Source: Haliclona indistincta
Lineage: Eukaryota; Porifera; Demospongiae; Haplosclerida; Chalinidae
Length of the DNA: 64,000 bases
Reading direction: 5' to 3'
NCBI GenBank assembly: GCA_964017065.1
Contig: OZ024783.1
Location: 14,320,040-14,384,039 of the forward strand
Positions 1,516 through 42,924 of the stretch are shown here, one piece after another (position 1 is the stretch's first letter; every line of letters begins with the position of its first letter). A program made the translations under genes and the position numbers. The notes beneath the pieces are model-generated. The model searched no databases. It was given only the letters and a program-made list of their open reading frames with translations, and was not told where the DNA came from.

Positions 1516-2487
1516 CACAGGGGGCATGCCGAAACGACTGGATTTTTACGGTTAATATTGTATTCTTTAATTTAGCTTATTTTCGGATTATTTTAGCACT
1601 TTTGGATAAAGTTATGGTGTCTGAAGCATTATGTATGATGCCAAATAGCGTCATTAGGGCTTAAAGTGGCGGTGCACGTAGTTAATATTCAACACCCACG
1701 CAATGTGTATTTTTCTAATAACTACTTTATAACTACAGCGATTTACATAACAGTATGGGGAAAATAATACATGAAGCGTCTGTATGCAGCATGCAGCAGC
1801 ATCTTGCCCACAGACGTACAGAGCGAATTTCTGTAATACTATCCAGATTCTTCTTAAAGAATTTTTTTCTGATCTAGGTTTGCTGTTTTGCCGCGTTAGC
1901 AAAGGAGTATCGAAAATCGCTCTGTACATTTGTGCACGCTGTAATTTGCAAGCTGTAAACGAAGTTCTTTCCGGAGCAAGCAAGCCAAACTGGAGATAGC
2001 AGCCACAGACCGGTCTTTACTGGGCGGGCTCACTGCTCCACATTAGCTAAATACTTCATGACTGAAACTTGCTATAATCGATGTTTATCGATAGACAAAA
2101 TAAAATGCATACTGGAGCACATCTGTACAAAATACCACTGCTGGAAAATAAAGCTACTTGCAAAGTTATGAATCTCATTAAATTGGTGCACAGCCACCTT
2201 AAAGGATTAAAGCTGTAGCATCCTTGAGCTTACGGTATGTACTATGTAAATAAATCATTATCACAGAAAATAAAACTGATAGGAGACATAATAGTACCAC
2301 ACAAACAAAGAAAGAAGATCCTTTAAATAGTGCGTGCAATGAGGCTTACATTGTCATAAGACGTTGTGAAGTATATTAGCTGAGCAAGACCCAAGAATGC
2401 CTATTAGAATCAGAAAATTATAAGAACTAAACAAGTCATTACAGATTAATTGAACAGAAAAATGTACAAATCTAGTAAATTGGCACT
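1516..2487. other. No gene seen
   Basis: Intergenic AT-rich sequence. Opposite-strand frames at 1654-1999 overlap each other without family features and were left out. Confidence 0.5.
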
Positions 2488-17086: not shown

Positions 17087-20000
17087 ATGACTCAGCCAGA
17101 TGATTTTCATTACAGGGTTGTCCTCACAGGAGACAGTTGTGTGGGCAAGACTAGTATACTCACGAGATTCACTGATGCTACCTTCAGCGAATCAGTCCTA
17201 GCAACAATTGGTGAGAGACTGTTGTCATTATCACAGACACACTATAATACTGATTAGCTGTACTGTAAATGGTTTTATAACTAATAATTATATACTGTCA
17301 GGTTTTGATTTTAGGCTCCGTATTGTTGATATTGATGGTAAGAAGATCAAGCTACTGATACGGGACACTGCTAGTCATGAACGCTTCAAACCAATGTTAA
17401 AGCCTTACTATAAGGATGCCTTGGTAAGCTGTGTTCCTCACAAAGACACAATTATAGATAGTTGCCCGGCCATGTACCACATTTAGTCTGGTCCCCAGTC
17501 CATTCCAAGGAAAGGTCTGGTGACTTGGCTTCACATCGCTAGGAACATTGGAATGTTGTGGGCGGGGCTAATATTGCCACGTACGTACATACGCTCTTGT
17601 GGGCGTGCAGCTTTTAGACAGCAGCTTTTTATGTCGACAACAACCAGCTACATCTGCAAAAGGCCATGCTTTTCTTCTCTAGAGAGAATTCAGAAGTTTG
17701 AACGCTAGGCAGAATAGCTCAGAAACAGTTTGATGGAGAAACTGAAGGTAACCCGCAGAGCAAAGAAACAGGCGATAACAACCTTCTGGACGAAATGTTG
17801 AACGCACTGCTGTGGTGGCCGCTACACCGGCAAAAAAGTGCCTTATTTAGCGCCCTGTACAATAGCACTGTCGACATCCATCTACCACAAAATTTAATTA
17901 ATGACGTCATAATTAAAAATTCCAGTACGCCGGAATGCTGGCGTACTGTTCCGAATGAGCTAAAGCCCAATCACCAGCCCCTACTTCTCGGTTATAATTT
18001 TCGCCCCACCCCGTTACGCCCATTAAAATAGCTTCTTGACAATTTGTTTTTGGGGCCTGGGGACGTGGCTAGTACCACATTATCATTACAAGTAATAAAA
18101 ACATTTCAACCAAAATGCAAGAGATTTAGGGTTGGAACATTAATTTTATTGAAAAAGTATGGAAACAAGATTTTGAAATGAAAAGGATTGTAACAATAGC
18201 AGTATAATGCTACCTCCCTATTAAATTAACCACAACTATCGAAAGCAGTTAATTTAGGGAGGTAGCATTATACTGCTATTGTTACAATCCTTTTCATTTC
18301 AAAATCTTGTTTCCATACTTTTTCAATAAAATTAATGTTCCAACCGGTTCTGGTTCCAACCCTAAATCTCTTGCATTTTGGTTGAAATGTTTTTATTACT
18401 TGTTTCTTTTCTTTTTTATTAATGACTTAGTTGGTACTTATGGTAATACAGTGTTATGAGCCTCTTCAACTATTTCAGCTGATCTGTACTGGCGATCGAC
18501 TCTGGCACTGCATGCATGCAACACGTACCATGCAACATTAGCTAAGCTTAAGCTAGCGTTCTTACAAGCCTGAACAGACAAATCCAGTGTAACAGTGATG
18601 ATTTGCTCGTTGTCTGCTGTGAACACTGCTAGTAGCAGCAGCTAGCACTCGCGTTCCAAGCAATTTGTACAAAGGTGCGCTTGTATTAGAATAATTACAT
18701 ACACGGGCGTGCGCGAGTAGGCGTAACCTAGTAACGGAGTTCGATGGAATGGAGTCTGTTATGGACCAAAAATCGCTGTTTTCCTGGAAATACTCGCTTC
18801 TGCTAGTGTTTTAGGCTTAAATAGATATCAGGTGCACTGCTCCCAACGACTAGTGTAGTTTCTGTGTAGGTTTTGTCTTGAATAGCTCACTAGCCACGGT
18901 GCTAGGCTTGCTGGAGAAGAAGAAAGAAGATGAACAAACGGGTGACCACGCGAATTCTGGTTTACCACCTTAGACCTGGTTTCTTTTACTTCTGAAGGTC
19001 TCTTTGTAATCGCAAAAATCGTGCAAAGAGCTTCAGAACGTTACATTAGCTTGAAACGCCCGTACGGTGAAGATATGGCAGTGCCGTACTTAGTGCCTCC
19101 AGGCTAGGCACCATCTTGTCATGCCCATAGCAGTTGGCCTTATAGTCTTTATTAGTAGACTCATTGTAAGCGCTTACCTCTTAGGATAGCCCCTAGGTAG
19201 TTAAAATACCCCTGATGTCGTCAACAGCCAAGATATACGTGAATTATTGCGTTTAGCCTAAGTGTAGCCGCCATCTTGTTTTCCGCCCAACCCTAAATAT
19301 GCCACGTCTACCGCGTGGCATAATAATGATTTATTAGAAAATGTGTGCATCCATTAGACTAAATGGGACTCAAAGTTCATGATGATAGCAACTCTAAAGA
19401 AAATTAAAAAGATTTCTATCGAAATCAAAGGGACGTAGGGATAAAGAAATCTACCAGCTGCATGGTTCACAATGTAAACCAACAAGAAACAAGCATGGAA
19501 TGGTAATACGATTGACTTGCTAACAGACCATAGATCCCTACATCAGTGGCTGCTGTGCACGTGGCAGACTATAGCTAGTTCAGCTAGTTGCTGTCGACTG
19601 ACACCTGACGTACATTCAGCTTGTTACAAAATATTGGTCTTATATACAGCCACTGATGTAGGGATCTATGGTCTGTTAGCAAGTCAATCGTGTTACCATT
19701 CCATGCTTGTTCCTTGTTGATTTACATTGTGAACCAGTGGTAGATTTTTTTATCCCTACATCCCTTTGATTTGTGTTCTTTTTCTTCAGTAAAGTGCAGT
19801 TCAATATCATGCACGTACTGAGCCTTCTTTGTTTTCACCATTGGTTTAGTTTTCCTGTTGTTGATGGCTTTCTTTATTATTAGTAATTTTAAACTTGTAG
19901 CTAAAAATTGTTATGCTGTACACATCAGCTCACCTATGCATTCATGCAGCCCCGCCCACACTTGTTTGTAGCAGTTATAATCATTATTTTAACAAACGCA

Positions 20001-23000
20001 GAATGGTGATCCTTTACCGTTCTTCGAAGACACTAGATAAATGAAGCACCATGGTGCAGATGCCTCGGTGGAATTGCATGCATACTGCACACTGCACACT
20101 GGGCATGCTTTAACAGCAATAGCAACTACAGCTATTCCACCAGCAGATAATGACTGTAAAAGATTTATGAAGTACAATGCAAGCTATTGATACAAGCTCG
20201 CAAAAATAACAGAAGCCAATAGTATGCTACTAATTAGTTGGGCGTGAACAAGCCATGCTTGTAGCAGTTTTTTGGTTTTTGCTGAATGTTATCCGGACCG
20301 CCATCCTGTAGTCCAGATCAAACCTACAATCTGCTAGCCAGTTAACCATGGACATATTCGACTTCGGAGAAGTCCAGATCGCCAGCAATGGTAAACAAAG
20401 TAAGCAAATCACGTCCGCCATAACTCACGAACAAAGCTTTAATTCAAATATCTAAGACCATCAAGTTCGAGCTATTAACGTGTTATGTCTATAATTATTG
20501 CACTTACCACCAGCTGATTCTTCGCCGTCTTTCAGAACTAGACCGGACACACAGACAGACACGCACGATTACTGTATGCCTCGTGGCTCCGCCCACCGAG
20601 GCAAAATGATGTGTTCTCCGTGATCCATATGGCGCGGAGATACTCAAGCTAGTGCTTGGTCATTTGCGTTAGCCACTGCCTGGTCACGTGTGTATTGCAC
20701 AATCACAATAATGGTGTCTAACACTTAGCTGACAATGGATCACAATCGAGAAATCGCGGAACTTATATCACAGTTTCGCTAAAAACAAAGTTTAAAAGGC
20801 ACCTGCCAGGAGAATTTCATGACTGTTCATGGGTGTTTGGTATCGGCACTGCTCGCGTAAAGGCGCTAGGTGAGTGGAAGAAAGAAATAGAGAAGAAAAA
20901 ACGAAGATGACGAAACTCGATTTTCACCGTTTCCAGGTTCGTCACTTTAGTAACAATCTCCTTGCTACTGTAAGATGAGAGACCAGATCTAGGTGTCTTT
21001 GGACGTATAAAATTCATTACCAGGAGAAATGTCAGCGTTTGAATGCTAATACATTGTATGTAGCCGCCATCTTGTTTTTCATTCATCCCTACATAGGGAG
21101 TCACTACCGTGCCTCCCTAATACTTTCTCGGATTTTAGTGTTGCTATAGCATGGTTTGAAAAGTAACATCACCAGCCATGCCTCCCTTGGTGGGCAGAAG
21201 AGTGAAAACTGGCTGGGAAATCGACTTTGCATCTATGGTCAATGGTCTATACTATTATTGCATCTCTGGAGCCACAAGCGAAATAGAGGTATTCAGAGAA
21301 TCTTGCTTTTGTTCCGACAGAGCTGTTTTTGACACAATTGGTGCAATCATGCACATAGCAATTTGTCACCACAGTTAGGTCAGTATTGTACCGGACTTGC
21401 ACCACCAAGCGAAAAGCAGGAGTAGTCGTTAATGACTTAATGTGTGGATGGTTTAATACACATGACTAGCAGTGAATTTGATTGGTCAGCAACTACTTCC
21501 GCTTTTCGCTTCATGGTGCAAGGTCTCTGCAAAGTCCGGTAGAACTGACAGCTTGCCCACCAAATAGTAGGCGTAACTTACACATAAATTACATTCCGCC
21601 CAATTTGCCGGTTGAATTAATAAGTTTTTAACTACTTTAGAAACCATGTATAGGCATGCATGCATGCATGTATGTATGTGTGTGTGTTGTGGTCATTAAA
21701 ATTCTTATTCTCAGGGTATTATGCTGCTGTATGACGTCACTGATGAGGGTTCATTTGACAATATTAGATCACGGATTAAGTATGTTGAAGAGGTGAGTTT
21801 AATTATGGCTCAATTTGAACACAGATGTTAATGAAATAGAAGTTTTGTGTACGTTTGTGTAATTTATGAAATTGCGACTGTGTGTAATTATAGTTAGTTT
21901 ATCCGATAAAACAATTGACATTGCCAGCTATAACGACATCTTGTTTCAATTTCTGTACACTGTCAAAGCTTAGGTCTGTATATTCACTTACATGTAGTTA
22001 ATGTATTGTGTTCAGTGGAAGATGAACTTCTTCAAACTAGATTTTCACTTGGTCGACCCAGGGAAGCAAACTTTAGTCTATTAGCTATCGTTTTAGCTAA
22101 ATTTAAAGTTGCAGTGGAGTTGAAAAAAGTCTGTTCCAAAATGCACTTCAAAGTCGCGACTATCACTCAATTGCCAATGTATTAGTTGACGTCAAAATGT
22201 GATTTTTATCGATTTTTGAGCGACTGTAACTAAAAAAGTAAACTCGATTTTGCATTGGCCAGCCCCAGGTCTAATAGAACAGGGTCTGATGATTTGAGTG
22301 GTGTGTTCAAATTGAAGTCCAAAGAAAAAAAAAGTCGGTTCCACTTTTGAGGTGAAGTTAGGTAAGAAACAAGTTTTGCCCGAAAAAATGAAGTACAACA
22401 GTTGCGTTTAGGACAGTTTGAGCATGGTTTATTCTGTTTAAACTGCATCACTAGTATCTCAGACTATCCTTAGACTGTCTAGAAACTAATACTAGCAATT
22501 CTAGTGTAGCGAAGGCTCAGGAGGGAGCCCAGAAGTCACTTCACTCGTGACCGCCATTCTCTATGAGCACTAATATTGTCGCGCTGCTTACTTTCTATTC
22601 TGAAAAGGACATTATTACATAAGCTTGAGCTTCTTAGCATAGCTTAGACTATAGCAAGAGTTCATTAAGAAAGAATATTTAGCCGTCAATATACCCCATT
22701 GGACGGCGAATGGGGTATATTGAAGGCTGCATACTCTTACTTGATGAACTCTTGACTATAGTATATACGCGCATGTGATTTTTAGCCTGTTATTTTGCGC
22801 ACGTGATTTTCGAATGAGCATAGCTAACCAGGGGGTACGACAAGCTAATTTATTCTGACGTATTGCTGACGTTGCTGCACGTATATATAGGCAAACCAAA
22901 ATACATTGTGACTTTCCTGGTCTGCTACGTCTTTAGAGGACAATTTGACCGGTAGGTATGTTGCGAAATAGATACTACTGCCCAAGAGCTTTCGTTTAAG

Positions 23001-26000
23001 CTACCTTACCCCACCCTTATCCCTTTTAGTTTTTGCAGTACAGAGAGATGAAGATTTAGAATTGATTGGCAAAAATATTCACCCAAGAAAGCACCAACGT
23101 GATCAAAACAGCTTTGCTATTATACTTGAGCATCAGTCGGTTAATAATGTAAAGAAATTGCGGCTATGGCGCACAAACTCTGGCTGCAATACGCACAAAT
23201 AATATTTATAATGTTGTCCAATCACTGTAACAGCAGTTAGCTGTTTTGAGTCGATTGTTCTGGATTGTTACTTGCCTTGATTTGGGTTGTAAAAAATGCA
23301 CACCTGAGTTCGATATCATGTACTATAGCGCGATGCCAAACTGTTTAAACTATCCTGCATACTTTCCAAAGCATTATTGTTCGTTATTGGGCGTGTCGTA
23401 TGTCAGCAATACGTCATATTAAATTAGCTTGTCATACCCCCCTGATAGCTAATGTTCCATCGTGAGGCGTGGCTCAATGGCGCTAGCATAGCATACAGCA
23501 CTCATTTCATTTAATTTCATTTCATATTGCTCTACAGTCACGAGAGGATGAGAGATAAAATTAATGGTGATATAATTATACTTGAGTGAATGACTGGCAG
23601 ACTGTACACAAAATATACAGCTACAAGGAGAAAAGAAGAAATTATGTGCTTACATGAGGATATGCGGAAAAAACTTAGTGGAACACACTTGTTACAAGGA
23701 CACAAGAAATGAAAAGAACAAGGGTTTGATGAATTAAAAGATCTTAAGAAAGTTAGATTGGAATAGATTTGGTAGTGTGAATTAGAGGAAGAGAATTCCA
23801 TAGTCTTGGAATTAGTGCTGGGCGATATCATATTTTCAATATTCGATATTTTGTTTACTCAAATATCACGATACAACTAAATATTGGTTATAATGTAGTA
23901 CTTGGTTGTACATGACATACCTGCATGGGTACTGATTATACAATTACAGGTTTTTAGCTAGGAACACCAGCATTTCCACCTTTGAAGGTTTGAGTGATGA
24001 CCTTTTTTTAGTGACAACATTGCCAGCAGTACTGAATAGTTGCTCTGAGGATGAGCTTCTTGCGCATAAGCAGAGATAGTGTTTTGCTAGCTTGGAGAGA
24101 TGTGGGTACTCATGTGCGTGCACTTTCCACCACTCTAGTGTATCTGTGGTTGAGTCTTGGTTAGGAGTAGACAAATACTTGTCTACCTCGTGGCTGACTC
24201 TGTCCTCTGCAGTAGCTGTTGAACTGTTCTCTGTGGTCTGCCGTTTTTTCAAAAAATCTCCAAGACTTCTCTTCTTTCTTGGAGGCTGTTCTGTTTCGTC
24301 CTGTCTCTCCTCATACTCTTCAATTTTCATTTCATCTGCTTCTTTCTTCACACGGCTCTTCACTTTATCTCTGTCTGCCTCAGCTACATTGTCCAGCTTA
24401 AATCGTGGATCCAAAATACTTGACACATCAAGAAGAAGTTCATTCAGTTTCTTGTCTGAATATCGTGCTGTCAATGGGGCAATCACTCTTCGCTTAATAT
24501 CACGGGTCATAGTGGTGCCATCTTCAATCCATCTGCAATTCTAGAATTGCAAAGGCTCAGAAGGGAGCCCAGAAGTCACTCCTGACCACCATTTGCTATG
24601 AGCTCTGATATCGACGCGCTGCTTACTATCTGTTCTGAAAAGAACATTGTTACAGGTAATACATAAGCTTCAGCTTCTTAGTATAGCTATACACAACCGT
24701 GTTGGAACTGTGGACGTCTACTGCTAGCGTTTGTAGAGCTGTGAACTGTGTTCTCGCTAGAAATTTAAATCCAAGGGGGGAATTCTAACATACCCAACTG
24801 CTATGTTATCTGGTATGTCATTAACACCTATCGCAATGACTACGATGTTGGCAGTTTGGTCAAATGGTTATAGAGGATTGGGGTGAGGAAGTAAGGAACG
24901 AGGGTTCGAATCCAGCTTTCAGCATGTTTTTTTTCCTTTACTAACCATTCGTTTAACATTTTTAGCAGTTATCCAAGGGGTTTTTGCTACAATCCAAGGG
25001 GGTAAACCCCCTCAAAAAAGGCCTAGCGAGAACACTGGATGTGAAGTTGCCTACCTGTAGGCTGTACCATGCTAGCGAACGGCGACAAGGCTTTGTAGTT
25101 CTGGGCGAAGGAAGCAGACGTTCGAGGTGCACCAATAGCCTTCGTGTTCTGTGCGTAAACGTAATTCAGAACTGTAGTGTTTTCCACTGTTGAGAATCTT
25201 CACCACTTTCTTGCCCATAGCAGCTCAGGGACCCATGGGATGGATTGGGCAGATCGCATATTTGTATTCTGCATTTGCAAGAGCTTTCGATTCATACTAA
25301 ATTCGTTAAATTCTGTCCAGAGATAGCGTAAAATCGACAACTAATTAAGATTCGCCATACATTTTGATTTGGAGTGAATTTACAAACCACAGACATTTTA
25401 CATGTCACATGACTGAATATTAATGCTTCCAACCTTCTCTGGTATGATCCAAGGTGACCTTCACGGAACGGAGTGGTTGTCAATAGCAACCCGTTTTAAA
25501 ATTATTTGTTTCACGCTTTTTAGGAATTTGCGCTTTGTCGAGAAAGCGCAGCGCTTTCTCCAGAAAGTGCAGTCACAGTAAGCGCAACGGATACTGCACT
25601 TTCTAAGGTCCAACTCCTGTTTTTACACGGCTCTTGTCACTCAAGAATCGCCACAAAATAGCTCTCTACTACTATAGGTGTTAGAAATTAAGTTAAGTGA
25701 GTCCTTTGTCGAGTGTAATCTGGGGCGGCATGGCAGCAACTCGTGCTAGCACTGGATTCGAGCCTGAGCTAGCACAATGAGCCCGAGCGAGCATTCTAAA
25801 GAGAGGCAACAACGACACATAAATTATTTCAGTGTGTTGGTTGTTTTTACTTCCGCGCAGCTAAACCTTCATGCAGCTGTGCCTACTGTATATTGAGTGC
25901 TAGCTGGCCATGTCCATGCATGGCAGACTTGTTGTCAGCCTACGGATGAGAGACAGGTAGCAGTCTAGGTAGCATTGCATAAGCCGGGCCCAGGCATGGA

Positions 26001-28140
26001 TCATGGCTACGGTCTTATAGGTACAACAGAGCAGCACAGGTAATAGTATAGTAGCTAAAGTGGAACCGTGCATGCCCGCTCAGGCTCACTGTGCTATCTC
26101 ACTAGCTCGATCGTCACACTGAGCTACACTAGCTCGAGTTGCTGCCATGGGCTATTACACTCGACAAAAACTATGTATATAATATAGAGCATTAATTCTT
26201 ATAACACCTATAGTAGTAGAGAGCTATTTGTGGCGATTCTTGAGTGTCAAGAGCCGTGTAACAACAGGAGTTAAACCTTAGAAAGCGCAGTATCCGTTGC
26301 GCTTTCTGTGACTGCGCTTTCTGGAGAAAGCGCAGCGCTTTCTAAAGAAAGCCCGCGCTTTCTAGGATTTCATAAAAAGCGATGCGCTTTCTCGAGAAAG
26401 CGCAAATTCCTAGAAAGCGCGGAACATATTCATCGTGTTACATTACAAGTAGATCGTATTCTGTGCATAAACGTAATTCCGTGTGATGTCCTTTATTTCT
26501 TGTGATGAGTAATGCAAGAGCAATAACAAGCTCTGCTGAACTATAACAAACCATCTTTTAGAAAGAAATGCACACAGAAGCTGCATGCAGAATATAATTC
26601 AGCTTATGCGGCATACGGTACATGTGTATTTTGATTCATAATCTTTCTCTTTCACTGTTTTTGTTCTCTCCTATGACTTTGTTCTACCTGTGTGGTATTA
26701 AAGAATGCTCCTGCCAAAGTTCAAAAAATGATAGTGGGCAATAAGTGTGATCTTGATGATAGACGAGTTATCAGCACTGAGAGAGGTCAATTGGTGAGTA
26801 CTAGTGAATTCTATATAATTATGTTAGTGCATGCTAACTTTAGCTCCTGCATGCAAAGAAGATAGTGCATCAACTGTACAAGGCGTGCAGACTTGTAAGG
26901 TACCATGCTGCATTTCTAAAATATACAAGTGAACGGCAGATTAGCTATCAATGTGAACCTTAAAGTAAGGAAATAGCTATAAAAAGATTTACATGATGTA
27001 TAGTAGAGGTAGTTGTTTCAGGTTACATACAATTTTGGTACTGTCATGCAGATAATTATAGCTAGTGTCCTTGCACTTATGAGAAAAATATAGCCAGAGC
27101 AGGTGGTGTACAACCTACTCACTGTGTATGTTACTTGTTTTGTCATCCATAGTTGGCTGATGAGCATCAAGCGATGTTCATGGAGACAAGTGCCAAATCT
27201 GGAAATAATGTAGAGTTGGTAAGTGATCATGACCTATGTCATGACTGATGACGCAATAGTTACATGTACAACATGTAACTATTGTGGACAGTATACATAT
27301 ACAGTACAGTGTACAATGTTTAGCTTAAAATTATCATTTTTAGATTTGGTTCAACAAAAATTAGTACACCGACTGATCGAACTCTTCAGTGGTTGCAAGT
27401 CTTCAATTGTTACTCTGTATTATGTTCGCTGAATAAAATAACGTTTCATTAATACAACTTGCTGGATAAAACTGTGCTAATAATCACTCTGGTGGAATAG
27501 CGAAAGAAGCTTTGATCTTTTACAAATGCTTGGCCTCTCTCCAAATAGGCAACTCTGTCACGTACATTAATTTTATAATCGGTGAAGTAGTTGTCTGTGC
27601 ATAGTTAGAGGGCATGTATGCTTCATGCACACGATCGGCTCTATCTGACCAATTCTGAGTTTCTTCTCTGCTACTGTAGCACTAGACACCATTTCAGCTC
27701 AAGATCAGTAGAACTCAAATACCGTCAACCAATAAACGTATTGTAGTACTATTATACTTATTGCTGTCTTGACGTGTTTAGCTGTTCTTTTTTTGTTGTC
27801 CGTAGTTCAATGCTAAAAGATACTATCTATCTACTGCTTGAAAAGTTCATACCGCAAACTTGGTATTTTTGCCCATTCTTATAATTATTTCGCAATTAAA
27901 ACAATTCAAGAATTGTAAAATAAATCCACAAAAACTATATTTATGCTCATTGAAGTCGGGAAATTCAGCTCCCACTATAAAATTTACTATGTGGATTTTG
28001 TGCAGTGAAAAATATATTTGTACTTTTGTCTGTTCAATTAATCTGTAATGCCGACTTGTTTAGTTCTTCTATTTTTCTGATTCTAAAAGGCATTCTTGCG
28101 TCTTGCTCGTCATATATACCGTGCAAGGTTTCATGACAAT
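17087..28140 (+). CDS. Rab-like GTPase module of a fusion gene (Rab copy A, six exons)
   Basis: Exons 17087-17210, 17302-17423, 21715-21792, 26704-26793, 27153-27218 and 28090-28140 encode residues 1-177. Visible motifs are the P-loop GDSCVGKTS (15-23), switch-I Thr in ATIGFDF, NKCD (121-124) and ETSAK (149-153), in the order of Rab8/10-type GTPases. The DxxGQ motif is altered to DTASHE (63-68), losing the invariant Gly and the catalytic Gln, and the preceding Trp is Arg. GTP hydrolysis is therefore doubtful; nucleotide binding may remain. Exon borders match copy B exactly. Exon 6 has no stop and no prenylation cysteine. It ends at GTAAGT in phase 0 and reads on into the ankyrin exons at 28603. 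The alternative is a short Rab made by reading into the intron. Confidence 0.85.
17484..18071. mobile_element. TIR element in intron 2, 10-bp target duplication
   Basis: The ends are TAGTCTGGTCCCCAG and the inverse of TAGCCACGTCCCCAG, flanked by GTACCACATT at 17474-17483 and 18072-18081. The TIR is close to that of the RecQ-carrying element at 8300-8932. Frames inside (17719-18031) are not recognised. Confidence 0.8.
18089..19325 (+). mobile_element. Hairpin-ended foldback element, family 2 copy 1
   Basis: The element begins with a palindrome (18089-18402) of two arms of about 140 bp, nearly perfect, round a 35-base loop. It starts CAAGTAATAAAAAC and ends with the inverse. The body carries no gene. 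The 3' end is the shared tail GTAGCCGCCATCTTG ... CAACCCTAAATA, then a 9-bp hairpin TATGCCACG/CGTGGCATA and ATA. The tail's CCAACCCTAAAT is the inverse of GATTTAGGGTTGG near the 5' end. Copy 2 spans 35555-42924. No clear target duplication. Confidence 0.8.
19396..21122 (+). mobile_element. Family 1 hairpin-ended foldback element, copy 1 (with nested insert)
   Basis: A palindrome (about 19396-19771, with a unique 90-base centre) opens the element. Its arms contain CTAACAGACCATAGATCCCT. The body matches copies at 44197 and 56179, and the tail ends in a near-perfect 10-bp hairpin (AGGGAGTCAC/GTGCCTCCCT) and AATA. A family-3 element (20045-20606) interrupts it. Confidence 0.8.
20045..20606 (+). 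mobile_element. Family 3 hairpin-ended element nested in family 1
   Basis: It starts AGCACCATGGTGCAGATGCC and ends at the CCACCGAGGCA hairpin arm. The uninterrupted copy at 44197 reads straight through this point, which defines the insertion. Confidence 0.75.
22494..22660 (+). repeat. Dispersed repeat (also at 24537-24720)
   Basis: Starts AAGGCTCAGGAGGGAGCCCA and shares about 160 bp, including CGCGCTGCTTACT, with 24537-24720. The two copies bracket the LINE and hAT relics, so those may be insertions into one older element. Confidence 0.6.
22653..22762. mobile_element. Hairpin MITE, about 105 bp
   Basis: A stem of about 48 imperfect base pairs (CAAGAGTTCATTAAG ... CTTGATGAACTCTTG), with CAATATACCCCATT and AATGGGGTATATTG at the inner arms and an 8-base loop. 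Confidence 0.8.
22955..23260 (+). repeat. Dispersed repeat (also at 54815-55065)
   Basis: Shares TATGTTGCGAAATRGATACC, GCAGTACAGAGAGATGAAGA and CTCTGGCTGCAATACGCAC with the second copy in the Rab C intron. No coding or TIR structure. Confidence 0.7.
23525..23812 (-). pseudogene. LINE 3'-end fragment
   Basis: Minus-strand frames give the RLWNSLPL line, usual at the C-terminus of non-LTR retrotransposon ORF2, then [13 protein letters not shown]. The fragment ends in an ATGAAATTAA-type tail. The same CPCN-K/R-CV tail occurs at 48302-48600. Confidence 0.6.
23813..24535 (-). pseudogene. hAT transposase C-terminal relic
   Basis: The minus-strand frame (24510-23944) contains the hAT C-terminal dimerisation region. 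It reads SILDPRFKL, then [20 protein letters not shown], then [20 protein letters not shown] and [16 protein letters not shown]. The spacing and the SxxxER/Q-FS motif are those of ZBED/hAT transposases. The N-terminal half with the zinc finger and most of the RNase-H fold is missing upstream of 24535, where unrelated repeat begins. The element's 3' end lies near 23813, with TAGTGCTGGGCGATAT, a sequence typical of hAT termini. It is dead by truncation. Confidence 0.88.
24852..24935 (+). other. tRNA-like sequence followed by T run
   Basis: TGGTCAAATGG (A-box like) and GGTTCGAATCC (perfect B box) are spaced as in a tRNA, with a T8 run at 24928. Stems do not pair well, so it is a tRNA-derived relic such as a SINE head. 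Confidence 0.45.
25505..26425. mobile_element. Foldback element with GCGCTTTCT-rich arms
   Basis: Arms of about 200 bp (25510-25715 and 26195-26425) are inverse copies, for example ACTCAAGAATCGCCACAAA against its inverse at 26229. The outer ends are packed with GCGCTTTCTCGAGAAAGCGC palindromes. The middle contains CGAGCGAGC-type repeats. No coding sequence or clear target duplication. Confidence 0.75.
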
Positions 28141-28602
28141 GTAAGTCTCATTTCACATTCAACTGTTAACTGTTTAATTACTTTGCTGATCTTACTATAT
28201 TCGGTTAATAGGCGAACATTTCAACTCAATTTTTTTTGTTTTAGGTTGAAGCGTTTCAGTTTATATTTTTAATCATCGATACTTCTCAATACCGTTTAGT
28301 AAAGGAATAATGCTTGCAAAATTAAAATTCCAAAGTATCCCTACATCAACGAAGAGAAGGATGCAGTCCGATGAAATCATTGACGGTTTTTAAATTTAAG
28401 CTATGGGAAGAGGATTCCACATTTGTTGCAGGTCATCGTAGTAATTTAGCCGCTGATGTAGGAATACGTGGGACTTTTACTTTTATGCAGGCATCATCCC
28501 TAATTTTTTTTATTTTTTACTTTACTTGTAACTATACACATACCACTTTATCATGATCATATGTGACAGTGTCGTGTAGCTTTATTGTACCATACATTAC
28601 AG

Positions 28603-29060
28603 AAAGGAAGAAATAATCTGATGCTAGCTGTTGCCGATAGCCACACAGAGACTGTAAAGTACCTAGTTGAGACTACACCAATCAAGATCAATGCCACTGA
28701 TTATGTAAGAATATTTTGACTGATCAAGCTGTTAAATGTGTAATACAAATAGGCTCATTGCAATTACGTTTGTGACAAATATTTTACTCGTTTTGTGTAA
28801 TGAAAGCGAATCCTATTAATATTATTTTTGTAGAAGTTTTGGACTGCCTGTCATTATGCTGTTGACAAAGATAATTTGGAAATTGTTAAGTTACTAGTAA
28901 CCCATGGAGCTAACATACACCATGGAAGTGAGGTAAGGTTGTACCTGCATGCTTGTGCTGCATGACATTGTTGATGTTTCATAGGGAAGAACTCCATTTG
29001 ATTTAGCAAAGTTGCAAGAACGTACAACTATTATAGAATACATGAACCAAGAGACAGCTG
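28603..29060 (+). CDS. Ankyrin-repeat module of the fusion gene (three exons)
   Basis: Exons 28603-28704, 28834-28932 and 28985-29060 encode residues 178-269. The first repeat reads NLMLAVADSHTETVKYLVE. The second contains CHYAVDKDNLEIVKLLV and THGANIH, a standard ankyrin helix-turn-helix and loop. A third partial repeat begins GRTPFDLAK. Incoming and outgoing splice phases are 0, 0, 0 and then 1, which joins without a frame change both to the Rab exon ending at 28140 and to the Roc exon starting at 29627. Ankyrin repeats commonly mediate protein binding; here they link two GTPase domains. No separate start codon with a good upstream exon was seen between 28141 and 28602. Confidence 0.82.
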
Positions 29061-29626
29061 GTGAGTTGTAATTTACATGTATAATCATTTATTTATGTTA
29101 AGGCCCGATTAGCAACCTGACCCGTTTTGAAGCCGGCCGCTGGTTTCGAAGCCAGTTAACCCAATTTACAACCACATTACTCAGTTGGCCCGTTTTAAAA
29201 CCATTATGTTTCAACACTTCAGGTTGCACACCTGCATGCTAGATCGACAGGACTTACATAGCTAATAGCAGGAGCACCATCACGGGTATAGCTGCAGCGA
29301 AGCAAGACTGAAGCTGAAAAGTGCCAGCTGCTATGTTTTAGTGCATCATGTGCTACTGTAATCAACATCAGCGTTGTTGTAGTGGTTTAGCAGCGCAGCA
29401 AGACTGGATGTTGTGTGCATGCTACAATCAAACTGCTCTAAAATCTCTAGAAACATCTACAGCTTCTCATTCTTCAGACATCTTTGGGTTTTCTGCAATA
29501 GTGATACTACATGTATGACAATTTGCACATGGAAGTATGACAACTCATATAAATCTGCTTTAGCTAATCTGCACACAAAAATTGAATATCTACTCTATAA
29601 TTATTATATTTTGCACCTTACTTTAG

Positions 29627-31681
29627 ATGCTACTAAACTGTACACTCAAGCAGTGGAAAGAGCAATGAGAGATGGTGTTACATGTGTCTTTATCATTAAA
29701 GTTCTCATCATTGGGGCACCTGGATCTGGCAAAACCAGCTTACGATATCTTCTGCTTGACTTACCACCGCCTCCCAAAAGGAACAGCACTCCTTTAGCCT
29801 CCCGGGCGGTCCGTGCCATATCAATACACCGAGTCAAAGCTGATGAAAGTGGAAATATTTGTACGTGGAAAGAGCTCGATGATAAATCATACCTTAGCTT
29901 CATCGCGGAGGAAGTGAAGGTTCTCGAACAGAATCCATCTCCTATGCTTATCACTGCCCAACCTTCTATTCCAATCACTAGTACAGTTCCTGAGAGCAGC
30001 ACATCTCAACCATTCAGTTCACAAGAAGTTTGTGAAAGAGATGGTTCAAATGAGAGTGATAGTGAAGGTGGTGCTACACCCCTTCCATCAATGGGCAGCA
30101 TGGTGCATACTCTTGTTGAGAATATGGTTTATAGTCCTCCAACAATTCCTAAGAGTGTTGAGCAGAAAAAGACCTTTGTCCACTTGATAGATTCTGGCGG
30201 ACAACCTTCATTTGTCAGCCTTGTACCTGCGTTCGTCAGAGGTAGCACAGTCAACATAGTAGTCTCAAAATACAATCGTGACATCAATGATAAGCTAGAG
30301 TATGAGTATGTAAAGGATGACAAGCATCTTCGTCAGCCAACGGAACTGGACCAAACACAACTCGAAAGCATTGAAGAGCTGATTCGCATTCTTTCGTCTA
30401 CTAAGCATTCTGAAAAAGGCTTAACATCAGAGTCTAAGTTTCTTCTGGTTGGTACTCATGCTGACAAGCATTGGTCTTTCTTTCAGCAATCACATGGTGG
30501 TAAGAATCGATGGTTGAAGAAGAGTCTTGGTGAGCTAAAGTCGATGTGCATTGAGATTAATGATGATGGAGATATTCTTCTGCCAATCAACACCTTAGTC
30601 ACAAAAGGACGTGATGAGTTGGCTTCTTCTTTAAGGCAGAAGATCATGGAAGCCTGCAGCAATGCCACTGTAAACATACCTACTAGATGGTATGTGTTCG
30701 AACTAGAATTGAGTGGTTTGGCAAAGAAGGAGGAACGAAGTGTTCTTGGTATAGCCGAGTGTATAGCATTAGGTGAGAATTTACAAATGAAAAGAGAAGA
30801 AGTATTGGCAGCATTGATGTTTATAGATGAAGCTGCTATTTGCATGTATTTCAAAATTGTTTCTCACCTGGTTTTTACTGATCCGCAATGTATTCTCAGT
30901 GAGGTCACTGAATTATTGAATCTTGGTATTGTTGACTTCAATCAGATCTCTTCTCTTTATCCTTTTCTCTCCAAGTTCATGGCATCTGTGCGAAGGCTAC
31001 GTGAACAAGGGCTGTTCAGTAAAGAGCTCGTTGATGTCCTATGCAGTAAGTATCGAGTGAATGTAGCTGGAAAGTGTGTCTACACAGTAGATGACTTCCT
31101 CGCAATCCTGAAGCACCTTCTAATTGTGGCCCCAGTTAGCATTGATGATGAAGCTGCTTTCTTCATTCCTTCTATACTTCCAAGTAGCAAGAAAACTGTT
31201 CCTGTTCTCGATGGTGAGCTGCCTCCTCTTGTTCTTCATTGTCACACAAAAGTGATGCCACTTGGGTTGTTCACTGCTCTTGTAGTTTCCTTGCTTTGTG
31301 ACCCCCTCTTTGCTCTACATGAAATTATTGGTCGCGATGTCATTAGTTTTCGATGCACGTCAGGAGGAGTAGTGATGCTGGTAGAGCATCATGCATGCCT
31401 GGTCATCCATTTCAATGGTGACCCATCTGTGGCTCCTCGTGTTAGAGCTGCCATACACCGCGCTATTGCCAAGGTCTGCAAGCAGCGACACCTTGACACC
31501 AGCAAGATAGTGTTTACTGATGGGTTCTGGTGTCCTTACAAGAAATGTGAAAGCACACCTCACCCGTGTGAGGTTAACGTGTCCACTGGTTGGCTCACCT
31601 GCTCAGTGAGACCAGCTCATGGTTCCGGTCGCTGTACCAATGAGAGGATGCTGGCATGGTTGGCAGCACATGATGGGAATG
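29627..31681 (+). CDS. Roc-COR GTPase module of the fusion gene (large exon)
   Basis: This 2,055-base exon encodes residues 270-954. A helical entry (KLYTQAVERAMRDG) leads to the P-loop GAPGSGKTS (299-307), DSGGQ (458-462, the DxxG motif in Roc style) and THADK (547-551, in place of NKxD), all in the spacing of a Roc GTPase with a long switch region. The downstream part, with VFTDPQCILSEVTELL and the AAFFIPSILP and LPPLVLHC lines, is COR-like. Roc-COR proteins are dimeric signalling GTPases. The chosen acceptor (TTTAG before 29627) restores frame with exon 9 (G|AT). The longer open frame back to 29413 is intron. Neither LRRs nor a kinase are visible. Confidence 0.85.
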
Positions 31682-31733
31682 GTGAGTCTATATAATTGAT
31701 GTTCTTCATTCATGATTATCATTATCATTGCAG

Positions 31734-32319
31734 CCTCATTCTCGGTTGACTCTTCCTCTACTGCAAAGTCTGTCAACTGTCAGTCTCTCTCTACCGGTGA
31801 GTTAATTTAGTATACACTGCTGCTGCACTGCTGTAGTGATATGTTACATGCATGCTATTGTGAGAAAGTACATGTATACTAATCTGTCTTACAGCTATTA
31901 ATTTTGTTTGGGCACCCATTTTATATGTAGATCAGAAAAACAACTGTTTTTGTATAATAGTCATTCACACTATTATAATCTTGCCCACCTTTTTTGATAC
32001 TGTTGCAGGTGCCAGTCAAGAGATTTCACTGTTCCAGTTCACAGAAAGTGTGGCTGCTGTAATTCCTGATAAATGGAGAAGAGTTGGTCTGGCACTTGGA
32101 CTCACTCAGGCTCAGCTGAATGCTATCGATGATCAGCATCGTGGAAAGTCACTCGAGTCGTTTGCTGAAGTGTTCAGTATGTGGCAGCACCTAGCAACTG
32201 CTGATAATAATCCAGTGAAGTGGAGCACTCTCGTACGTGTTCTCAAGTCTCGTACAGTAGGAGAAGAGACTCTCGCTGAGTCTATCAAGAGTAAATTTAT
32301 AGACAATTTGCAAACTTAA
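31734..32319 (+). CDS. C-terminal linker and Death domain of the fusion gene
   Basis: Exon 31734-31796 encodes a 21-residue Ser-rich linker. Exon 32009-32319 encodes residues 976-1078 and the stop. The latter reads FTESVAAVIPDKWRRVGLAL, then LTQAQLNAIDDQHRGKSLES, WQHLA and WSTLVRVLKS. This is the six-helix Death-fold pattern with its conserved Trp and a C-terminal LxxAL-like helix. Phases (1 and 1) fit the large exon. Death domains assemble signalling complexes, so the protein plausibly couples GTPase state to apoptosis- or immunity-like signalling (inference). The total coding length over twelve exons is 3,237 bases, a multiple of three. Confidence 0.85.
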
Positions 32320-32689
32320 CGTGAAACCTTGTTTTATCGCTGACACATCGACGGCATTGATGATTTTCCCTTATAATATCATTTTTGTGTGTAATAGCAT
32401 ATCTATGCAATGTAATTTTTTGTATAATAGCTATTTTTGGATTTTAAACCCAAGAATGGGTTTCTTGTAGCAATAATCTAGGAAGCTATAGCCTTTCTTA
32501 CTCACATGCATGTGACTACTAGAAGCTGATCTTGCTCCTCATTATAGCACTTCTCTGCTTAATCTACAATAATCCACAGCTACTCTAAAGTGATGTTACT
32601 TGACTTAATTTTATAGTTGCAGCTTTTCTTTGTTAAGCAGCTGTTTTGAGATAACGTACTTCAATTGCATTCCATGAGGAATAGACAGA
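32320..32689. other. 3' flank of the fusion gene
   Basis: AT-rich, with candidate polyadenylation context but no certain signal. No gene seen. Confidence 0.4.
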
Positions 32690-32800
32690 AGTGATAGTAG
32701 TTGAGTATCATGCATGCCTGGTCTTCCATTTTAACGATGAACAATCAGTAGTTCCTCTCACTAGAGCTACCATGTGTTATGGCAAGGTTGTGCTCTGTCG
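32690..32800 (+). pseudogene. Relic of the COR-like exon
   Basis: VVEYHACLVFHF at 32697-32732 corresponds to VEHHACLVIHFNG in the intact exon (31381-31418). It is followed by a decayed version of SVAPRVRAA. The DNA match includes CATCATGCATGCCTGGTC. No flanking domain remains. It lies 0.5 kb upstream of Rab copy B, where the end of a duplicated fusion gene would be expected. Confidence 0.75.
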
Positions 32801-33152
32801 GCCTGTATACTGACATTACTGTAAGGAGTGAGGGTATATACTTCATCTATTATAAGCGGGGCTGACATGTCAGGTCACGTGGTCCTTGTCGACAAGGCTG
32901 CATGCAGGTACTATAGTACCTGCATACTAGAAGGGTTACTGGCACCTTTAATACTAGGATTAATTTTAATACTATAATTATTACACATCACGTTCCATCT
33001 ATTTGCTATTCAATTTTTAGTAAGGTAGTATAGTACCTCATGAACACACTTGTAGATTCAGACGAGCCCCACCCACTAACATACTACGCGCGTGGGAGGA
33101 GGTTCAATGAATTTGGCTCGCAAGCTAGACAGGGGGCGAACGATTCTAGGAA

Positions 33153-33284: not shown

Positions 33285-35479
<2,195 letters not shown>

Positions 35480-35511: not shown

Positions 35512-35554
35512 CGCCATCTTAGTTCGAGGTCATCCTACAGCAATGATAATATTA
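35512..35554 (+). repeat. Decayed hairpin terminus (variant 3c)
   Basis: AGCCGCCATCTTAGTTCGAG, then a shortened CATCCTACA and only one stem arm (GCAATGATAATA). It abuts the 5' palindrome of the next element. Confidence 0.6.
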
Positions 35555-35977
35555 CAAGTAATAAAAACATTTTAACCAAAATGCAAGAGATTTAGGGTTG
35601 GTACATTTATCGAAAAAGTATGGAAACAAGATTTTGAAATGAAAAGGATTGTAACAATAGCAGTGTAATGCTACCTCCCTATTAAATTAACAACAACTAT
35701 CGAAAGCAGTTAATTTAGGGAGGTAGCATTACACTGCTATTGTTACAATCCTTTTCATTTCAAAATCTTGTTTCCATACTTTTTCGATAAATGTACCAAC
35801 CCTAAATCTCTTGCATTTTGGTTAAAATGTTTTTATTACTTGTTTCTTTTCTTTTTTTATTAATGACTTAGTTGGCACTTATGCTAATACAGTGTAAAGA
35901 GCCTCTTGAACTATTTCAGCTGGCTGCATGCCGCTCAGTCGTGGCGATCGACTCTGCACTGCATGCATTCAACACCA

Positions 35978-36674: not shown

Positions 36675-39600
36675 TTAGTTTTTGTTGCCTCCTCGAATGA
36701 GAAGAGTACCACCATCTGGTGGGGAAAGAAGAGAATGTAACAATTTAGCACGGTAGCTGTACAGATCTGCCAAGAATCGGAGAATCAGTTCTTGATCTTC
36801 AAACCATTCCACTCCGATCACGTGATTGATCACTAGTGCAGAAGTGGGAGGGGACGAATAAATTTTAGGAAACCACGTATCGCGAACAGTCTGTAGTGCG
36901 GGACACTGGAACACAAAGTGCGCCAGATCTTCTGAAGAGTCAGTAGAGCATAGAAGACAAGAGGACGATCTAGGCGACTGGCCACGCGGAGTGTTAAAAA
37001 CTGCAGTGTGAGAGGCGAGGGAAGTTGCGTGAAGGATGAGTCTTATCCGAAGATTAGAAAGACGCGATAGTGATAGATTGTGTTTGACTTTATCAATAAT
37101 AGGAGCAGGATGACCATATCTGATAGCAGGAGGGAGGTTAACAATATGGGAGAGAGATGGCATGGTAGTTGACTCAATGGAATTACGGAATTCTTCAAAG
37201 ACTAGGGTTTTAGTCAAAGCTTTCCAAGCTTTCTTGGATGGGAGATCTGAAACGAGTTCCAAGACCGATGGAAGGGAAAACGAGTCTAAGTGAGCAGAGA
37301 AAGAGTTAATCAAGCTTTGAGAAGGAGGTGGATATTGACAAGGGCGTATAGAGAGAAGAGGGCATGCAACGCAATACTATCCGTGAAAACATCGAAATCT
37401 TTATTGTTACTAAGAATAGCACTTTCCGTTATCAATTATTGTTATGGTATACGGAGGGTAAACGGAAACTGACGTCACAACACAAGTAATGGCAGACCAA
37501 GCTGAAGAACACTGCACAATACCATGCTGCGTGCGCGGATCACAGCCACGCCAGTCAAAGAGGAGAAAGACCGTAACTTCGCCTCAGTCCGATACTGCTC
37601 GTCACCTGTTGCTGGTAAAATACCGTGCAGCCGATCAGCAGGAAGCATGAGGAAGCGACAGCGCCAGCGATAGACAGCAGTTTCGTTTTACTTGCGTCTC
37701 AGCCAATGCCATCAGTGATACGCGACATGGTTGGCAACCACCAGTATCCACAGCTTCATGTCGATTGTAGATTTTGTCAGCTAGTTTTCCATGGAGCACG
37801 CCTCGACACGCCTAGTCAAGTACGTTGTATGACGCGTCCACGTTTAATGAACTTCTCGTGATGTCACATCCGCGTGGGCGTAAAATCTATTGTTAGTAAC
37901 AATAAAGATTTCGATGTTTGTATGCGTTGCATGCCCTCTTCTCTCTATACGCCCTTGATATTGATTAGCTCGATAAATAAGAATATCGCGAGACACAGCA
38001 TAATCAGGAAGAGCTAGCACATTTCTTACAAAATTTAACTGTCTATGGGCAATGAGGTAGGAAATTGGGATAGTACCACAAAGGTAATGTACACCAAGGG
38101 ATGGTACATGAGATGGAACACCAAGAATAGTTCTTAAAATCTTAAGCTGAGATCTTTCCATCATTAATATCTCAGTCTTGGTAGGAGCCCATACTTCAAA
38201 ACCAAACGACAGAATTGACAAAGATATTGCCTTAAAAAGTTGCAGTGAAGTAGCAGTATTAACTCCGGTATGACGAGCACCAAGGGCAGATAGAGCGTAA
38301 TATGCGCTACGGGAAGAAGTGATTGATCTAGTAGTGCGGTTAACAGTTGAAGAGGATGTAGAAAGCAAGAGGCCTAAATGACGGGCAGAGGATAGAGTTG
38401 GAATAGAAGAGTTAGAAATAGACCACTCATAAGAAGGGAGTTTCTTTCTAGAAAATATTAGAACCGCTGATTTGGAGGGGTTAATTTTATATCCCCACTT
38501 ATTGGCATATTTATCAACAACTGATAACATACCTTGAAGATCTTCTTGAGAAGAGGCAATGAGTGCCATGTCATCAGCAAAAGTAGGAGAACCAGCATAG
38601 ACTGTACCAATACGAACCCCAAGGTCACTTGCTTCGAGAAGAAAAAGAAGCTCACTTGTGAAAACAGCATAAAGGAGTGGAGAGAGAACCGCCCCCTGAC
38701 GAACTCCCTGACGAACAAGGAATGGTCTGGAGACTCGATCATACCATAGAACAGAGGAGGTTGAAGAGCTATACCAGTTAAATAGGGTATGCCACAGGTC
38801 TCCCCTCACCCCCAGATGAAAGAGCTTATAGAAAAGTCCACTATGCCAGACCGTATCAAACGCCTTTTGAACGTCTACTAACGCAAGGAATGGAATATCC
38901 CTATTTAGCTTACACTCGGCAATAGCCTCATGAAGTATGAAGGAAGTATGCGCCGTGGAGTAACCGGGTCTAAATCCACCTTGTAGGGGATGGATTAAGT
39001 GTAATAGCTTGTCTTGTAAGGGAACGAGCAACAGCTTTTCAAAGAGCTTTGAAATAATCGAGGAAAGTGAAATTCCTCTATAATTAGCAGGGGAAACAGG
39101 ATCTTTGCCACCTCCTTTGAATATAGGAATCACCGTACTGCAGGTAAAGGAAGAGGGGACAACATGATATTTTAATATCCCGTTAAAAAGGGAAGCTAGA
39201 GCCTGAAATACAGAAGCAGGAGCATTTATAAGGTGCTCAACCGAAACTTGGTCAGGACCAGAAGCTTTGCGTCTAGGGAGAGAGAGAACAACAGCATTAA
39301 CATCTTCTGCCGTTATGACTACACAAGCTTCTGAGTTAGCAGGAGAGATAGCAATACTACTAATTTCGTTGTCAATGAAGGCCTTGTGACAGGGATCAAA
39401 GTATGTTGAGATAGGGGTATACAGGTCTTCAAAGTAGCTAGCCCAAGCACCAGGAATGGCATCTTCTTGGTATAATTGACCTCGGAACATAAGGGAACTC
39501 GAAGCAGTGGATTTGTGGCCAAGTTTACTTTTGATAATGCGAAAAAGATTAGGGTTAGCAATATCAAGGTTGTTGTAAAACTCATCTAATTCTGAGCGCT

Positions 39601-40864
39601 GGAGTTTCCTAAACTCTCTGCGAAATGCACGCTTAGCTTCTTTGTAGGCCTTCTTAAGGGGATGGTCAGGATGTGCGGGCCTACCGCCAGAGATCCAGTC
39701 CCTGTATTTTTGTTTAGACATCTTATGTGTAGATTTAAGACTAGGGGACCAATTTTGACCGAGAAAAGGACGGGGTTTACTGGACGGAATAACTTTTTTG
39801 GCAGAGGAGATGAGGGCAGACGATATGAAGTTAGAGAGGACCTCTATATCAGATGAAGAGGTAATGGAAAGAGGAGCAAGTTGCATAGCACTATCAAGCG
39901 AATCGGAATAGTCAAGAATAGTGGGGGAGGGGTCGGGATAGCTACTTGGCCACTTTAGAACAGAACGGACAAAAGGCATGGAGAACCCCGAACTGATGGC
40001 AGGAAGAGGAGAGAGAGAGATCACAACCTTAGCATGAACAGCCAAATGATCAGAGACATTTAGAGGGTGGGTTGGAATGACACGAGAGCTAACAATTTTG
40101 TTGGCAAATGACCTAGAGCATAATATGTGATCAATGGTTGAAAAAGACTTATGGGCTTCACTCTCATAAGTATACGCAGGGCCCTGTTTTTGAAAGGATA
40201 CATGAGAGGAGATATAATCCCAATTAGAAAGATAACGGAGTAGAATTTTCCCCTGCTCATTAGGAGGGGTAGAAGATGATCCAATGTCAGCATTTAGATC
40301 TCCTAAAAAAAGAATAGAGGAGTCAGGGAACAAGGAGAAAATAGAATCCAGGAGGTCAAGAGAGTCACGAAACGGGTCAGTAGCACCAGAGCGGGACGGC
40401 AAGTAGACCGAAAAGAGAAGAATATCTGATGGAAAGCACTTGAGTCTCACACCCAAAACCCTTTCAGTGCGAGGTGCAGGAATAGGAGAAATCACATGTT
40501 TTAGAGAATTATGCCATAGAATACCAACTCCCCCATGTCCTCTGATCAACCGAGGTTGGCAGAAGGTACGGTCTTCACAATCTGGAACGCATTCAAACAG
40601 AAAGGAATAATCAGGGTGGATCGAAGGAAAAGAGGAAGCTTCAAATGAATGAAGCCAATGCTCAGACAGACAAATGATGGCAACGTAACGGGAACAGAGA
40701 GTTTTTAAATACGGGAGATTAGGGGAAATACCCCTAAGATTAAAACATATCAAATCAAGAGTCAAGGGATTGGAATTAGAACAGGAATCAGAAGAATCTG
40801 TCGGGTTTCGATTCACTGAGGGGGCACATCCGGCAGGGACAGTGCCCCCTCGAGGGAGTTTAAG
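36675..40864 (-). CDS. LINE ORF2: endonuclease and reverse transcriptase, split by MITE
   Basis: Two segments (40864-37958 and 37331-36675) join in frame once the MITE and one target copy are removed. The first part is an APE-type endonuclease (CFNLRG, CLSEHW, FLGDLNAD, SDHLAVHA). Then come RT motifs: RKASGPDQ, IFKGGGKDPVSPANYRGISL, DVQKAFDTVWH, RQGVRQGAVLSPLL and TFADDMALIA (catalytic Asp pair near 38580). A CLLC...H...C knuckle is near the C-terminus. No ATG opens the frame: it is open from 40864, and overlaps ORF1 by about 50 bases, so re-initiation or a -1 frameshift at the CCCCCT run is needed. No RNase H was recognised. Confidence 0.93.
37339..37957. mobile_element. MITE inside LINE ORF2, 7-8-bp target duplication
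   Basis: TIRs begin CAAGGGCGTATAGAGAGAAG and run about 45 bp with an inner AATCTTTATTGTTACTA block. ATATTGA flanks both sides (37332-37338, 37958-37964; eight bases if the terminal G is counted as target). The length and duplication suggest a hAT-type mobiliser. No coding sequence. Confidence 0.88.
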
Positions 40865-42411: not shown

Positions 42412-42924
42412 TCTCCTGACACAAAAGTCTGTGTCTCGTGAGGCTGCTGCTGTCTTCACTGTGTCTCGACTGTGTCTTCACTGTGTCTCTGCTGTCTTCA
42501 CTGTGTCTGTGTCTCGTGCTGGCTGCTGCTGGCTGCTGCTGTGATCACGTGAACTCTGGTTTACCACCTTAGACCTGGTTTCTTTTGCTTCTGAAGGTCT
42601 CTTTATAATCGCACAAATCGTGCAAAGAGCTTCAGAACGTTCGATTAGCTTGAAACGCCCGTACGGCGAAGATATGGCAGTGCCGTACTTAGTGCCTCTA
42701 GACGAGACGCCATCTTTTCATGTCCAAAGCACCTGCTCTTATAGTCTTCATTATTAGACTCATTGTAAGCGCTTACCTCTTAGGATAGCCCCTAGGTAGT
42801 TAAAATACCCCTGATGTCGTCAACAGCCAAGATATACGTGAATTATTGCGTTTAGCCTAAGTGTAGCCGCCATCTTGTTTTCCGCCCAACCCTAAATATG
42901 CCACTGCTACCGCGTGGCATAATA

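Follow-up and report, generated by a model that had tools for sequence, protein, structure and literature searches.

Does a single gene of the sponge Haliclona indistincta join a Rab-type GTPase to an ankyrin-Roc-COR-Death chain, and if so, what might such a protein do? The locus lies in a stretch of 64,000 nt (C1:14320040-14384039; hereafter, the window) from a genome assembled into 46 contigs (144 Mb). An original prediction had proposed twelve exons for this gene (here, the focal gene), with 3,237 coding bases and a sixth exon that lacks a stop, and each of these points held. All 11 introns were of the form GT...AG, and phases matched at 11 of 11 junctions. The 3,237 bases, stop included, contained no internal stops and corresponded to 1,078 residues, and exon 6 was open up to its donor (Table 1). 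A COR-like fragment (~32687-32801, + strand) directly 3' of the Death exon is 77% identical to positions 31368-31454 and is, judging by its sequence, a relic of another copy. The window also contains two perfect palindromes: the first (18130-18345) lies within the focal gene's intron 2, the second (35554-35843) after the stand-alone Rab gene S2. Their 100% complementary arms measure 91 and 128 nt, respectively, around a 34-nt loop. A LINE-like element occupies positions 37847-40861 and 40816-42477 on the minus strand, where an open reading frame (ORF) for a reverse transcriptase and endonuclease (RVT_1, 7.4e-29) stands beside a SAP-domain ORF.

Table 1. Exons of the focal gene and related Rab features, in window positions
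Feature	Position	Strand	Remarks
Exon 1	17087..17210	+	124 nt; ATG start, P-loop, part of switch I; donor GTGAGA
Exon 2	17302..17423	+	122 nt; switch II (DTASHERF)
Exon 3, Rab part	21715..21792	+	78 nt, phase 0
Exon 4, Rab part (NKCD motif)	26704..26793	+	90 nt, phase 0
Exon 5, Rab part (SAK motif)	27153..27218	+	66 nt, phase 0
Exon 6, last Rab exon	28090..28140	+	51 nt, stop-free, donor GTAAGT; same open exon in genes A, B, C
Exon 7, ankyrin	28603..28704	+	upstream in-frame stop, no intervening Met
Exon 8, ankyrin	28834..28932	+	
Exon 9, ankyrin	28985..29060	+	
Exon 10, Roc-COR tandem	29627..31681	+	Pfam, predicted fold
Exon 11, short linker	31734..31796	+	63 nt
Exon 12, Death-like domain and stop	32009..32319	+	Pfam, homologous exons, structure model
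S2, stand-alone Rab8-like gene, six exons	33285..35479	+	175 aa ending DRQFK-stop; no cysteine tail; adjoins focal gene on its 3' side
Exon 6 of truncated paralog C	2350..2400	-	its ankyrin, Roc-COR and Death exons just beyond the window
Gene D Rab exons	52452-52565, 57719-57796, 59836-59925, 60161-60226	+	open exon 6 and ankyrin-Roc-COR-Death exons outside the window

The predicted domain order (i.e., Rab, ankyrin, Roc, COR, and Death) was likewise recovered, with Roc-COR recognized through its fold and Death by a profile score below the cut-off. Pfam searches of the whole chain detected Ras at residues 10-170 (2e-53) and Ank_2 at residues 152-240 (2.6e-17). Among solved structures, those of Rab8A were closest to the Rab part, and Rab8A headed the 45 PDB sequences found at <=1e-40. 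Searched as a single exon, exon 10 matched Roc at 22.2 bits (cut-off, 27) and gave no Pfam match to COR, for which a fold comparison was used instead; the predicted fold confirmed a Roc followed by a COR and matched the Roc-COR of LRRK2. The Death score was 0.085 on the whole chain and 0.0014 on the exon alone (19.1 bits versus a cut-off of 22.6). Among the 16 corresponding exons, 10 matched Death at 0.01 (best, 5.5e-5), and the model of the focal Death region showed six helices at modest confidence (mean pLDDT, 68.5). No kinase was present among the 21 Pfam families obtained up to an E value of 1 for the whole chain, and the chain had no Pfam match to an EF-hand.

The arrangement recurs in the genome. 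At least 56 Roc-COR loci were found: at least 14 in C1:14.13-14.85 Mb, at least 39 on C8, and at least one each on C4, C5, and C10. Seven of the 14 C1 genes (the focal gene and genes A to F) were read in detail, and in all seven the Rab exon 6 is stop-free and ends at a same-strand splice donor (GTAAG or GTGAGT). The exon is 51 nt long and nearly identical in the focal gene, A, B, and C. The focal gene, A, and B each consist of six Rab exons and, downstream on the same strand, exons for ankyrin, Roc-COR, and Death; of the seven genes read, these three alone are complete. Gene A could be spliced through Roc-COR without a stop, with the Death exon next in a compatible phase. Gene B could be spliced through exon 6 with matching GT-AG phases and has open Roc-COR and Death frames; its ankyrin exons, extra ones among them, were identified by eye. 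Gene C retains Rab exon 6 together with the ankyrin, Roc-COR, and Death parts, but a search of 14.9 kb found none of its Rab exons 1 to 5. A diverged Rab (exons 1, 3, 4, 5, and 6; exon 2 was not detected) precedes the ankyrin, Roc-COR, and Death parts of gene D. In genes E and F the Roc exon, like Rab exon 6, is in phase 0, and a search for ankyrin exons between the two found none; gene E has a Death exon and a 4-base disruption in exon 2, and Rab exons 4 and 5 of gene F were not found. An eighth Rab (IIE) has an open exon 6 and then ankyrin exons, downstream of which no Roc was seen.

An isolated gene-model error was ruled out by the repeated order in A and B and by the parts kept in C, D, E, and F. 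On the sequence evidence, this is a recurrent tandem gene family and not one odd gene. The recurrence is partly inherited by duplication, and the genes of the cluster are therefore not independent cases. E/F and the stand-alone Rab gene S4 with its twin occur as mirror-image copies at C1 14.63-14.66 Mb (+) and 14.80-14.83 Mb (-), a pattern suggestive of an extensive inverted duplication or of an artifact of assembly.

The same cluster holds stand-alone Rab genes, and exon 6 carries a stop in each of the four that were read (S1 to S4). By pattern search, 7 places showed the stand-alone type of exon 6, and 4 showed the fused type. S2, S3, and S4 are close copies with the common ending DRQFK and a stop; S2 and S3 retain NKCD and SAK, and their switch II reads DTSGQ. 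Exon 2 of S1 is damaged. S1, S2, and S3 each have another Rab gene next on their own strand. The loci on C8 (at least 39) form a second large set of ankyrin-Roc-COR genes, approximately 60 to 65% identical to the focal Roc-COR. No Rab was seen ahead of its members in the ORFs of one 6-kb stretch, and none was among the matches listed within 200 kb of the at least 39 C8 Roc-COR loci, a listing from which the diverged Rab of gene D, too, was absent. From comparison of the paralogs, the Rab and ankyrin-Roc-COR-Death parts are very probably fused in a single transcript.

In favor of the fusion, an in-frame stop lies ahead of the first ankyrin exon, without an intervening Met, in four of four genes (focal, A, B, and C), although a Met within that exon could serve as an alternative start. 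In the same four copies, reading from exon 6 into the intron meets a stop 8 to 43 codons on, so unspliced transcripts might yield short Rab-only products. Intron 6 probably conceals no terminal exon: by eye, the stretches that the copies have in common look like a shared repeat, and the intron resembles a palindromic element.

The fused Rab retains a Ras-fold G domain with a Rab-like sequence, and its nucleotide and catalytic motifs are not all intact. Residues G15, G20, K21, T40, and D63 were identical in 11 of 11 Rab sequences, and G66 and Q67 were kept in 8 and 9 of them, respectively, both being lost in the focal gene. The focal Rab keeps the P-loop, T40, NKCD, and SAK and carries W62R, G66S, and Q67H in switch II; gene A shows SKCD, and in gene B the later motifs read NRCD and SHK. 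All three complete fused Rabs (focal, A, and B) have thus lost part of some GTPase motif, with differences from copy to copy. C-terminal prenylation cysteines are absent, the focal chain continuing into the ankyrin part and S2 and S3 ending in DRQFK. Because of the three switch II changes and the missing cysteine tail, the focal Rab is unlikely to be a normal membrane-cycling Rab.

Rates of change differed along the chain. Between the focal gene and A, the values were 0.92 for Rab, 0.72 for ankyrin, and 0.22 for both Roc-COR and Death. One-ratio estimates were 1.04 for Rab exons 1 and 2 (11 sequences), 0.49 for Rab exons 3 to 5 (6 sequences), 0.28 for Roc-COR (5 sequences, 677 codons), and 0.38 for Death (5 sequences). 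An omega near 1 is also expected under relaxed constraint. For Rab exons 1 and 2, the value of M2a over M1a was 10.70 with all 11 sequences, 5.25 (p of approximately 0.07, not significant) without sequences K and F, and 14.13 when B and H were left out as well, these subsets having been chosen after the first result; it was 0 for exons 3 to 5 and for Roc-COR. Simulations covered the first and third sets, and in each, 0 of 60 reached the observed value (maxima, 5.03 and 7.81; refits, 10.15 and 14.04). The codon models were run with our own code without a gene-conversion term, and conversion among tandem copies could contribute to these values. In pairwise comparisons, dN exceeded dS in 3 of 24, and the reverse held in 6 of 24. 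The sites flagged in exons 1 and 2 were 4, 8, 38, 39, and 73, of which the last three are at switch I and II. With segment limits set by us, 15 of 18 positions were variable in switch I, 17 of 19 in switch II, and 3 of 8 in the P-loop (11 sequences). Rab exons 1 and 2 are fast-evolving and Roc-COR and Death are constrained, with positive selection significant in two of the three sequence sets.

Since the Rab front is variable and Roc-COR and Death are constant, the simplest reading is that of a sensor, a switch, and an output in one chain. A Rab would have been joined to an ankyrin-Roc-COR-Death gene, giving the tandem family. The Rab and ankyrin front would then form a variable sensor that mimics the face of a real Rab, Roc-COR would act as a nucleotide-controlled switch that alters the oligomeric state, and the Death domain would relay the signal onward. 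A microbial factor acting on Rabs, by binding or modification, might be the trigger; the fused Rab would then serve as a decoy or guard built into the chain. In conflict systems, according to the available portion of PMC8195603, fast-evolving N-terminal repeats are coupled to AP-GTPase (Roc) and COR, which serve as a switch. For the chain as a whole, in which we infer the transcript, sensing, switching, output, and trigger from sequence, belief and doubt are about equal. With the fusion granted, the sensor role itself could still go either way.

Three other accounts were weighed against this reading. The Rab and the ankyrin-Roc-COR-Death part might be two adjacent genes, head to tail and co-duplicated but not spliced together. 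Block duplication could yield the recurrence, and stand-alone Rabs do exist in the cluster, yet exon 6 is open with a donor in every Roc-COR gene read and closed by a stop in every stand-alone Rab read. The joins are in phase 0, genes E and F rebuild the junction straight to Roc in the same phase, and the truncated gene C retains exon 6 alongside its ankyrin part; we consider separate genes highly improbable. A real fusion in which the Rab part is a decaying relic under relaxed constraint, with no role, also seems quite unlikely. It would accommodate the omega near 1 in exons 1 and 2, the broken switch II of the focal gene, the disruption in E, and the loss of exons 1 to 5 in C. Decay fits poorly, however, with the open frames of the focal gene, A, and B, the constraint on exons 3 to 5 (0.49), the P-loop residues that contact the nucleotide and do not vary across the 11 sequences, or the omega of >1 in two of three sets, where none of the 60 simulations reached the observed value in either set tested.

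The fused Rab might instead be a cis-acting partner, i.e., a Rab8-type GTPase tethered to a ROCO protein otherwise bound in trans, so that its GTP state addresses or activates Roc-COR. This idea arises because LRRK2 binds Rab8A in trans: the available text of PMC9576273 has Rab8A, Rab10, and Rab29 binding the LRRK2 Armadillo domain. The Rab8A match of the Rab part, the LRRK2 match of exon 10, and the P-loop and T40 fixed in 11 of 11 sequences agree with it. The chain, however, has no kinase, the focal Rab lacks G66 and Q67, A and B have SKCD and NRCD, and the cysteine tail is absent. The focal gene and A have Pro at the position of Rab8A Thr72, the LRRK2 site. A fixed contact also predicts conserved switch regions, yet these change fast, and we judge a cis-acting partner unlikely.

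The sensor-switch-output reading can be extended by analogy. The family may be an animal counterpart of the plant integrated decoy, a doubtful but possible reading: a ROCO-Death receptor family would carry a Rab8-like bait whose switch surface diversifies under attack, and the constant Roc-COR and Death would signal any disturbance of Rab traffic. Should the Rab prove to be a decoy, an integrated-decoy receptor would be present in an early animal lineage. A Rab8-like domain in one chain with ROCO-Death, repeated in a fast-evolving cluster, offers a natural experiment on Rab control of Roc-COR. Rab-ROCO contact in trans is known from LRRK2 biology, a Parkinson's disease pathway.

The architecture had been predicted to be undescribed, and within the proteins and open-licence literature searched it is. 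When proteins of 0.55 to 1.75 times the focal length were searched with the Rab part, 5 of 374 candidates matched, none with ankyrin domains listed. The available portions of PMC8195603, PMC6337361, PMC11378527, PMC8303950, PMC9576273, and PMC7139218 do not describe a Rab joined to Roc-COR. A whole-chain protein search returned mostly single-exon pieces and one Halichondria panicea protein. That protein (LOC135346128) was the nearest full-length match with a name, the alignment covering 83% of the query with 25% of residues identical; it resembles the focal chain in its ankyrins and Death (precomputed Pfam) and differs in having no Ras-family domain listed and two Death-like stretches (by eye). 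DAPK1 has ankyrin repeats, Roc-COR, and a C-terminal Death domain in that order. Roc-COR, ankyrins, and Death form this known DAPK1 core, so that the Rab ahead of them is the sole novelty. The available text of PMC6337361 gives DAPK1 as kinase, Roc-COR, and Death; the front of DAPK1 is a kinase, whereas that of the focal chain is Rab8-like, with no kinase found. Compared with LRRK2 and LRRK1, the focal chain lacks a kinase, has the Rab in the same chain, and ends in a Death-like domain. The large Rabs (Rab44, Rab45/RASEF, and Rab46) are described in the accessible part of PMC8303950 as EF-hand, coiled coil, and C-terminal Rab; they too place a Rab in a long multidomain protein, but the focal Rab comes first (residues 10-170) and the chain has no EF-hand match. 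Brown algal ROCO genes, according to the available portion of PMC11378527, are expanded, have a diversifying N-terminal part, and are proposed immune receptors. As far as the accessible text of PMC11378527 and PMC8195603 goes, the brown algal and bacterial ROCO/AP-GTPase systems, both put forward as immune receptors, resemble the sponge family in being expanded, with a diversifying N terminus; their sensor consists of leucine-rich repeats, whereas here it would be a Rab.
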